Positions 20,720-52,146 of a stretch of DNA of 64,000 nucleotides are shown in pieces. The DNA is from Metabacillus sp. FJAT-52054 (GTDB taxonomy: Bacteria > Bacillota > Bacilli > Bacillales > Bacillaceae): positions 3,604,723-3,668,722 of the forward strand of contig NZ_CP147407.1 in the NCBI RefSeq assembly GCF_037201815.1, in the 5' to 3' direction. The first letter of the stretch is position 1; every line of letters starts with the position of its first letter. The notes under the pieces were generated by a model. The model worked only from the letters and a program-made list of their open reading frames with translations, was not told the DNA's origin and made no database searches. The position numbers were made by a program, and so were the translations under genes.

Positions 20720-22246
20720 ATGAATACGAAAACTCTTGTTGGAGGGGCGCTGCTGTCAGCAGCCCTCCTCTTCGGATTTAGCCCGGCTGGACAAGCCTAT
20801 GAAAAACAAACGTATGCAAATGAAACAAAAGTGCAGCTTAAGAAAGCCCCATCTCTTCAAGTTCAGCTCAACGGACTTTTTGAAGTGGAAAACCTGACCT
20901 CAAGAGAAAAAACACTTCTCGTTCCATCTGCAAATGTGACCCTTTCTGCGAGCAGCGGAACCGCTAAGCTTACTGCAGGGTCGGACTCCTATTCAGCCGG
21001 TGCAGGGTTCAGAATTTCAGAGATTGCGAACCCTCCTGAAAAATATGTGAAATTTACAAGTCCGACAGAAGTGCGGACGGGAGCTGGCGACAGTTTCGCC
21101 TCCCTTCGCACAATGAAAAAGGTTGAGGCGGCAGAATACCTTTCTGAAACCGACAGCTCAGGAGTAAAGTGGTTCAATGTACAGCTGCCAGACGGCAAAC
21201 AAGGATGGGTTTCATCCAATACATCGATTGTTGAGTCTAGCCCGCTAAGCTTATCCTTATTCAAATACAGCACCCTGCAATACCGGGGAAGCTTTGAAGC
21301 AAAAGCGGACGGCAATTTGGCAGCACTCTACAACCTTTTAAGCCTTGAAGATTATCTGAAAGGCGTTGTTCCGAATGAAATGCCGGCAAGCTGGCATCCT
21401 GAAGCCCTTAAGGCCCAGGCTATCGTAGCACGAAGCTATGCCGTTAACAGTATGGGACTCTCCAATACGGCGAAAAGCCAGGTCTATAATGGGTATACAA
21501 AAGAAGATCCCCGCTCCAATGCGGCTGTAACTGCAACAGCAGGCGTAATGGCAAAGCATAACGGCAAACCCGTTCAAACGTTTTTCTATTCAACAAGCGG
21601 CGGACAAACAGCCAATGCATGGGATGTCTGGGGATCCAGCCAAACGACCTTCCCTTATCTTAAAAGCGTAGCGGACCCATATGAATCATCCATCCACAGC
21701 AATTGGACGGACACCTTCCGCTCCTCAACGATTTTGGGAAAATTCGGATTCAACCCGGATACAACCGTTCTTTATGATATTAAAGCCATACCTACCGGGC
21801 AAAATGGAGAAATCGGCAAAGTAACGATAACAACCTCTGCCGGCAGCAAAACCATCAGCGGAAAAGAAGGCGACATACGCTCGCTTTTCCCAGTTGCGAA
21901 ATATTACAACCAGCTCCGCTCCAACTGGTTTACAATGAATCCCGTTAAGTCTTTTACGGTTAAGGGCACAGGCTCCACCGTCCAGCAGCAATTTTCCGTA
22001 ACAGGCAGCACCATCATGGCAGCTGATGGGACAACATCCACAGTACAGGGAGCACAGGTGAACATCCAAACCGCTTCCGGTCAAGTCACGCAAGAATCCG
22101 ATCCTGCCACAATTGTCATCAACGGCAAAGGCTGGGGGCACCGCATCGGCATGAGCCAATACGGCGCCAACGGCTTTGCCCAAAAGGGTTTCAAGGCAGA
22201 AGCAATCGTGCAGCATTACTTTCCTGGTACGGTTGTGGGGAAATAA
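20720..22246 (+). CDS. lytB: SpoIID/LytB-domain amidase enhancer with SH3 domain
   Basis: 508 residues with a signal peptide, an SH3b domain at about 112-172 (VRTGAGDSFASL...KQGWVSSN), and a SpoIID domain: LEDYLKGVVPNEMPASWHPEALKAQA with the family's catalytic Glu, VARSYAV, FYSTSGGQT and GHRIGMSQYGANG. SpoIID proteins are lytic transglycosylases; B. subtilis LytB is the modifier protein that stimulates LytC. Position downstream of tagU and next to the amidase matches lytABC, though with SH3 binding domains in place of CWB2. Confidence 0.92.
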   Translation: MNTKTLVGGALLSAALLFGFSPAGQAYEKQTYANETKVQLKKAPSLQVQLNGLFEVENLTSREKTLLVPSANVTLSASSGTAKLTAGSDSYSAGAGFRISEIANPPEKYVKFTSPTEVRTGAGDSFASLRTMKKVEAAEYLSETDSSGVKWFNVQLPDGKQGWVSSNTSIVESSPLSLSLFKYSTLQYRGSFEAKADGNLAALYNLLSLEDYLKGVVPNEMPASWHPEALKAQAIVARSYAVNSMGLSNTAKSQVYNGYTKEDPRSNAAVTATAGVMAKHNGKPVQTFFYSTSGGQTANAWDVWGSSQTTFPYLKSVADPYESSIHSNWTDTFRSSTILGKFGFNPDTTVLYDIKAIPTGQNGEIGKVTITTSAGSKTISGKEGDIRSLFPVAKYYNQLRSNWFTMNPVKSFTVKGTGSTVQQQFSVTGSTIMAADGTTSTVQGAQVNIQTASGQVTQESDPATIVINGKGWGHRIGMSQYGANGFAQKGFKAEAIVQHYFPGTVVGK

Positions 22247-22325: not shown

Positions 22326-22871
22326 TGCACTGACCCCCGTTTCGCTAAAGCACTAAACCTCCGTCCCCGCTTCTCACCAGGCCTTGTCCCCCAGCACTTG
22401 TCGCGATTCTTGCTCTTTCCCCCACTGCGTTACCATGTTGAGGGTCAGTGCAATGCACTGACCCCCGTTTCGCTAAAGCACTAAACCTCCGTCCCCGTTC
22501 CTCACCAGTCCTTGCCCTACAGCACTTGTGGCGATTCTTTCTCTTTCCCCCACTGCGTTACCATGTTGGGGGTCAGTGCAAACAAAGGTATCCTCTTTTC
22601 AAAAGAAAACAGCGCGGCGCCTGACCCGCGCTCTATTAACGAACTATAGCTCCGGCACCTTCTTTCTAAACCCTTGGTACATAAGGCATTACAGGTCCAT
22701 GCCTCTGTCCCCAGATGCGGTGAAGCATCGCGGGACTGGCACCGTGCCTGACCCGCTTCTTACTGCCAGACTAAAGCTCCGGCACCATCACCCATAAACC
22801 CTTGCAGCCCAAGGGCTCAGAGGTATCATCCTCCATCCCCACTTGCTTTAAAGCACAGCGGGACTGGCACC
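22326..22871. repeat. Array of four 127-128 bp hairpin-ended elements
   Basis: Units at 22326-22452 and 22454-22580 are 127 bases, bounded by TGCACTGACCCCC and its inverse GGGGGTCAGTGCA (one end base varies), and nearly identical inside (CTAAACCTCCGTCCCC). Units at about 22616-22743 and 22744-22871 are 128 bases, start CCTGACCCGC and end GGGACTGGCACC. No ribosome-site-bearing ORF is present. Related units recur at 36.3 kb. The remaining 22872-22930 shows nothing else. Confidence 0.85.
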
Positions 22872-22964: not shown

Positions 22965-23426
22965 CTATTTCAAAATATCCTCTTTCGGAGACTCGTCCCC
23001 GTTAATCACATAATACCGATCCTCGTGCTTTTGAAGAATCCAAAAGTAGTTTCCGCCTATTTTTGATTCTTCAAGCACGACGGTCCAGTCCTCTTTATAT
23101 TCATCTTTCAGCATATTGACTGCTTTTTCCTTGAGCTTGCTTTTTTCAATCGGAGTAAAGGTGAATTTTTCGATTCCTCCGACTTGTTTCACTTTGTCGG
23201 AAAACATAATTTTGCTGATTTCCATGTCATCTTTGCTGATTCCTGATTTGCTGAAATGCTCGTAAAACTTATTCATATCGTCATTTTGAGCATCCATATA
23301 TACGTTTTTAACTGTTTCTGCTGCGGCTGCCATTTCTTCCTTTGCATTGGCTTCGGGGTCTTGGCATGCTGCCATGAGAACGATGGATAGGATTATCCAT
23401 ACGCTTAGGATCCATTGCTTTTTCAT
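22965..23426 (-). CDS. Secreted lipoprotein of unknown function
   Basis: 153 residues from ATG 23426 (AAAGGACG eight bases upstream; the frame is open to 23447 without a better site). The lipobox LMAAC near residue 21 predicts lipid attachment to the outer membrane face. The mature part is acidic with two helix-like stretches and a C-terminal beta pattern (WTVVLEESKIGGNYFWIL) reminiscent of NTF2/DUF4878-like lipoproteins. I cannot name it. It follows the polysaccharide operon on the same strand but after a terminator. Confidence 0.8.
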   Translation of the reverse strand: MKKQWILSVWIILSIVLMAACQDPEANAKEEMAAAAETVKNVYMDAQNDDMNKFYEHFSKSGISKDDMEISKIMFSDKVKQVGGIEKFTFTPIEKSKLKEKAVNMLKDEYKEDWTVVLEESKIGGNYFWILQKHEDRYYVINGDESPKEDILK

Positions 23427-23509
23427 CTGATTCCGTCCTTTTAACATATGATATCTCTATTATAGAGCGGACGGTACAAAAGAACTAGGTCATCTATTGT
23501 TAAAATTAT

Positions 23510-36309: not shown

Positions 36310-36564
36310 TGCACTGACCCTCCATACTTTAAAGCAACGGGGGCCAGAGGTTAAAACCTGCAATCTTTTGCGGGACAAGGGCTTAGCAGGAACAGGGACG
36401 GAGGTTTAGTTCTTTAGCATAGTGGGGGTCAGTGCATTACACTGACCCCCATTGCACTAAAGGAGCGGGGGATGGAGGACAAAGCCGCCGTACCCTTGAT
36501 ATAAGCGAGCCACCGGAATGCGGGGACGGAGATTTAATGCTTTAGCGGGGCGGGGGTCAGTGCA
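36310..36564. repeat. Two inverted-orientation copies of the 127 bp element
   Basis: 36310-36436 and 36438-36564 are each 127 bases and bounded by TGCACTGACCC and GGGGGTCAGTGCA ends. Their inner GGACGGAGGTTTA is the reverse complement of the 22.3 kb units. The rest of the 36195-36622 gap is terminators at both ends. Confidence 0.85.
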
Positions 36565-51965: not shown

Positions 51966-52052
51966 TTCCTACGGCGGCCTGACGATCCTAGCATTATAAA
52001 TGCCTTAGACTCACGGCTTTGCGTCCCTGCTTTTCAGCAGGTTTGCCTTTAT
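51966..52052 (-). ncRNA. Cyclic di-GMP-I (GEMM-I) riboswitch
   Basis: Minus-strand RNA reads GGCAAACC, then stem CCTGCT-GAAA-AGCAGG with a GNRA tetraloop, then GGGACGCAAAGCC, CTAAGGC and TGCTAGGATCGTCAGGCC. All are hallmarks of the GEMM-I aptamer: the conserved GGCAAACC and GACGCAAAGCC, the tetraloop and its receptor arm. It lies about 80 bases upstream of the SwrA-like start. I could not decide between termination and translational control; a perfect intrinsic terminator is not obvious before the ATG. Confidence 0.93.
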
Positions 52053-52146
52053 ACTGGTATATTTGGATTTTAATCCAATAGTGACTATTATACTATTGTT
52101 TTGGAATATTATCTATATTCTACATGAATTATCCTTAAATACAGAT

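Follow-up and report, generated by a model that had tools for sequence, protein, structure and literature searches.

A head-to-tail paired repeat family in a Bacillales genus and its probable link to a TIRYT-kind RAYT

Background

The closest described systems are the TIRtrons and other TIRYT-associated TIR families (Di Nocera et al. 2013, PMC3733652), in which the flanks of TIRYT genes carry the motif GGGGWSAS (PMC3733652). TIRYTs form subclass 2.1 of the TnpAY1 proteins (PMC6006769) and correspond to RAYT group 1, and a C-terminal helix-turn-helix has been reported for most of them (PMC6006769), a trait that is typical rather than defining. Among the repeats of Bacillaceae, bcr1 has been named as one of the MITEs (PMC3733652). 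The question of why RAYTs persist along with their repeats is still open and has been worked on mostly in Proteobacteria. Here we describe a four-unit array from a Bacillales genome which, judging from sequence comparison, is most probably one locus of a non-autonomous repeat family that is mobilised by, and co-inherited with, a RAYT (HUH, Y1) of the TIRYT kind.

The array and its repeat family

The window, a 64-kb stretch of DNA analysed as a whole, corresponds to C1:3604723-3668722 of a 4.13-Mb Bacillales genome (G000), whose main contig begins at dnaA. The four-unit array reported by the first-pass annotation within one intergenic space (22326-22871 of the window) is real: four units stand at the stated position, and the number of genome matches given below is far beyond chance. 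On one side is a SpoIID-like gene (20720-22246, + strand) and on the other a convergent lipoprotein-like gene (22965-23447, - strand). The first two units are of type A and 127 nt each, all four units lying on the + strand: A1 (22326-22452) has the inverted ends TGCACTGACCCCC / GAGGGTCAGTGCA, the right one with one change, and A2 (22454-22580) has the ends TGCACTGACCCCC / GGGGGTCAGTGCA. They are 93% identical and form an AA pair with a period of 128 and one spacer base. A 36-bp spacer (22581-22616) separates this pair from a BB pair with a period of 127, consisting of B1 (22617-22743; ends GCGCCTGACCC / GGGACTGGCACC) and B2 (22744-22871), which are about 70% alike and meet at the junction GGGACTGGCACC / GTGCCTGACCC. 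The window holds a second AA pair on the - strand (36310-36436 and 36438-36564). It also holds, as a separate feature, a c-di-GMP-I riboswitch at 51970-52057 (- strand; 81.3 bits, gathering score 35).

Copies are present well beyond the window, so that the refuting condition named in the first-pass annotation does not hold: BLAST searches of the own genome gave 45 matches with one A unit and 54 with one B unit, and a sequence-only family model built from 66 units matched 105 units in G000, spread over 48 loci, as well as 109 in G001 and 119 in G002. A profile built from A finds B and the reverse is also true; because their profiles find each other, A and B are regarded as one superfamily. Together with the same order of motifs in both types, these reciprocal matches support the earlier proposal that the two have a common ancestor. 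Across a 40-genome panel, the repeat is abundant in the five members of the genus, with 66-91 scored matches each, and only two of the 35 genomes outside the genus, G017 and G033, show any, with two matches each.

The units have conserved inverted ends around a variable middle. Type A follows the order TGCACTGACCCCC - TGCTAAAG.A.TAAACCTCCGTCCCC - variable middle - CTCTGTCCCC..TGCGGTGAAG - GGGGGTCAGTGCA, and type B follows the same order, with the ends GTGCC[AT]G[AT]CCC and GGGACTGGCACC (canonically GTGCCTGACCC...GGGACTGGCACC) and with CTCCGGCACC inside. On average, A units carry 1.8 copies of GGGGWSAS and B units 0.97, whereas shuffled sequence gives 0.05; the motif is present in 43 of 46 A units and 44 of 60 B units. 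By comparison, GTAG was found within 12 nt of a unit end in none of 106 units, the variant GTGG being outside this count.

Head-to-tail pairing is the rule in this family, which is unusual for such repeats. A first set of 95 units contained 42 pairs, of which 21 are AA, 21 are BB and none is mixed, together with 11 singles. Moreover, all 106 units in G000 face the same way as the first unit at their own locus, including those at ten loci that combine A and B, and G002 also carries arrays of three to five units. In BB pairs, the palindrome at the inner junction is the best kept (10.3 of 11), against 8.5-9.0 for the unit and outer stems. The middles have an identity of 0.71-0.73 within a pair and 0.55-0.61 between loci, with 0.51 in a shuffled control; their greater likeness within pairs points to local duplication or conversion, while the large differences between loci argue against a recent burst. 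As a side observation, an IS3-family element of ~1.29 kb (rve, HTH_21) lies at or between units in three genomes (G000 C1:205472-206762; G001 C1:3651771-3653057; G002 C1:4085293-4086579), as if it favoured them as targets.

A RAYT gene bracketed by the same repeats

A single RAYT gene of G000 (C1:3791606-3792157) has AA pairs on either side. Its product of 183 aa, in which NHIH and YIHMNP are intact, matches the NCBIfam model NF047646 (REP-associated tyrosine transposase) with 92.5 bits against a cut-off of 80, and contains the Pfam Y1_Tnp domain with HUH and the catalytic Tyr. The closest solved structure is that of E. coli TnpAREP (4er8, E 7.7e-5). A C-terminal helix-turn-helix was not found in this protein, Y1_Tnp being the only domain above threshold. 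The same bracketing by unit pairs is found in all five genus genomes searched (G000-G004), with pairs of a diverged type in G004.

The type of the flanking repeats goes with the lineage of the enzyme. The flanks are of type A in G000 and G002, whose RAYTs are 86% identical, and of type B in G001 and G003. In particular, one chromosomal site carries an A-lineage RAYT with eight A-type and no B-type ends in G000, and a B-lineage RAYT with no A-type and ten B-type ends in G001, where the gene is frameshifted and thus broken and has the G003 RAYT as its nearest relative; the genes beside the site are 93% and 84% identical between these two genomes. Repeat type and RAYT lineage thus switch together. 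Two further full-length Y1_Tnp genes of G000 (C1:3312158 and C1:3753209) have no such repeats alongside. A different tandem array (C1:3311704-3311978), based on TTGCCTGGCATTC and with a 41-bp period, was seen just upstream of the second RAYT-like gene.

Outside the genus, the same stem recurs in shorter palindromes on the flanks of several Bacillales RAYTs, for example GGTGCCTGACCC..TTAAAG..GGGTCAGGCACC, with the loop TTTAAAG or TTAAAG. Among the loci from a scan of named genomes, a strict hairpin pattern was present at 6 of 31 Firmicutes RAYT loci (mostly Bacillales), compared with 3 of 31 in a far control, so that hairpins with this stem are not general at RAYTs. Within the genus, the link between repeat and enzyme is well supported by sequence. 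The earlier description of a MITE- or REP-like family is supported by about 105 copies and by a RAYT gene that has these repeats on its flanks in each of five genomes; the associated enzyme is a HUH/Y1 RAYT.

As to how such a family might spread, the RAYT would bind single-stranded DNA at two kinds of site, namely the palindromic ends and the repeated motifs of the GGGGWSAS type, and would cut and join there, so copying units to intergenic sites behind genes. Pairs would arise, or be refreshed, through local tandem duplication and recombination. Transposition would now be rare, with most copies inherited vertically and, as a less certain step, kept by selection for a role of the DNA itself in the host. 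We infer mobility, mechanism and host role alike from these patterns. Several observations count against this explanation: no clean empty site was found, the flanks of the candidate sites having diverged, the RAYT is without the C-terminal helix-turn-helix of most TIRYTs, the middles are divergent, and most of the distant RAYTs are without such hairpins.

Persistence across relatives and chromosomal placement

Syntenic sites, 23 of them in G001 and 17 of them in G002, were compared with those of G000, and orientation agreed at every one (23/23 and 17/17). Site occupancy is a biased figure, because the stretches were picked around matches, but orientation is unaffected by this. Composition is the same at 8 (G001) and 10 (G002) of these sites, and some sites differ in type between the genomes, A against B; such swaps may come from AABB loci that lost different units, or from replacement in situ. 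Relative to G000, orthologous units are 92% identical in G001 and 79.5% in G002, whereas the DNA 16-75 nt outside the units is 70% and 57.5% identical (random, 52.5%) and third codon positions are 81% and 56% identical. Sites and orientation are kept in relatives that have nearly saturated third codon positions. The units thus change more slowly than their surroundings, although this comparison covers loci of identical composition only (17 and 25 unit pairs), the profile search favours conserved units, and gene conversion could slow change at unit ends.

Gain or loss of units still occurs, as two lineage-specific cases indicate: at G000 C1:628882-631073 two direct AA pairs bracket ~1.7 kb that is missing at the matching place in G001, and the other case lies at G001 C1:500466-500590. 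None of the candidate sites gave a clean, base-exact empty site, since their flanks are too diverged for exact junctions to be obtained. Separately, short repeats of the GGACGGCTAAA... type form a long array at C1:1134050-1135230, which takes up the intergenic space in which G001 has a single A unit.

The loci are also unevenly placed on the chromosome. With loci merged at a distance of 15 kb, G000 has 31 independent loci, of which 29 fall within one arc, from 3.60 Mb via the origin to 1.34 Mb, that is, 45% of the chromosome; the limits of the arc were taken from the data, but the Kuiper test (P<=5e-5 by simulation) is independent of them. The same arc relative to dnaA is seen in G001 and G002, genomes that are not independent of G000. 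With respect to the direction of replication, inspection by eye shows units of both orientations to be common on each arm.

The same sites and orientation in related species suggest that the host keeps the units for a reason. It is possible, and we say so tentatively, that they are host-domesticated DNA sites, acting in an origin-proximal domain of the chromosome either as sites for binding or as cruciforms, with the RAYT as their maintenance enzyme. Such domestication would extend mobilisation by a RAYT rather than oppose it. It is favoured by the slower change of orthologous units, their uniform orientation at syntenic sites, and the shared arc. Nevertheless, the rate comparison has the biases given above, and type and unit number vary freely among loci, some of which are lineage-specific. 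A more specific version, in which about 100 paired palindromic sites and a transposase that has been domesticated together organise the origin-proximal arc and are maintained by vertical descent, the enzyme-repeat pair switching type together at the same loci, is rather unlikely. If the units are truly constrained in place, the view of such repeats as slow parasites needs an added host function. A Gram-positive genus with two RAYT lineages, matching repeats, shared sites and a natural type switch makes both specificity and host benefit testable.

The immediate neighbours of the loci bear on another explanation, namely that the units are a structured RNA element, for example a transcribed 3' hairpin that acts as an mRNA stabiliser or attenuator. 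The genes on either side are convergent at 22 and divergent at 6 of the 47 G000 loci with both neighbours, and REPs have been reported in similar places (PMC3733652). The convergent setting would suit a transcribed hairpin, as would T-runs facing the locus in 51 of 96 flanks (24% of control windows) and some units that fold better than shuffles, with z down to -4.0. However, units in G000 are oriented independently of the neighbouring gene, and Rfam gave no match at the array with either the gathering or a relaxed threshold. Covarying pairs were likewise absent when alifold was run on mixed, A-only and B-only alignments, on both strands and with column shuffles; the A stem does not vary, and the signal in B is no higher than in the controls. 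The suggestion of a structured RNA element in the first-pass annotation thus finds no support in Rfam or alifold, and we regard it as improbable.

A classical MITE of a DDE insertion sequence is very improbable: the units are indeed short, non-coding and numerous, with 13-bp inverted ends, but no DDE transposase with these ends was met, no target duplication was seen at the candidate sites (where the flanks have diverged), the IS3-family element inserted in the repeats has other ends, and the gene bracketed in five genomes is a Y1 RAYT.

Comparison with known systems

Mobilisation by, and co-inheritance with, a TIRYT-kind RAYT remains the preferred explanation. Like TIRtrons, the system has a RAYT-like gene between inverted repeats without GTAG, GGGGWSAS within these repeats, and a moderately abundant genomic family with dimers and clusters. 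It differs from them in that the unit is a 127-nt composite with internal copies of the motif, pairs are the norm, the two subfamilies correspond to two RAYT lineages, and the protein, at 183 aa, is short and has no C-terminal helix-turn-helix. With the REPINs and RAYTs of Pseudomonas fluorescens (Bertels and Rainey 2011, PMC3116915; PMC8049555) it shares two conserved inverted ends around a variable spacer, non-autonomy, a RAYT beside a cluster of its own type, tandem clusters and long vertical persistence. In contrast to these REPINs, there is no REP with a 5' GTAG, the end sequences are others, the host belongs to the Bacillales, and head-to-tail pairs are found nearly everywhere.

The REP/BIME sequences of E. 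coli and their TnpAREP (PDB 4er8) are more remote. The enzymes belong to the same HUH/Y1 superfamily, and the repeats lie mostly behind genes in both cases, but the sequence similarity of the enzymes is weak at the E value given above, and a REP unit is 20-40 bp with GTAG, whereas the units described here are 127 nt without it. Finally, bcr1 of Bacillus cereus, set beside the present family by its description, is likewise an intergenic, non-coding repeat of Bacillaceae. We therefore place the family with the TIRtron/REPIN-like families of a RAYT: it is of a known kind, and new in its details.
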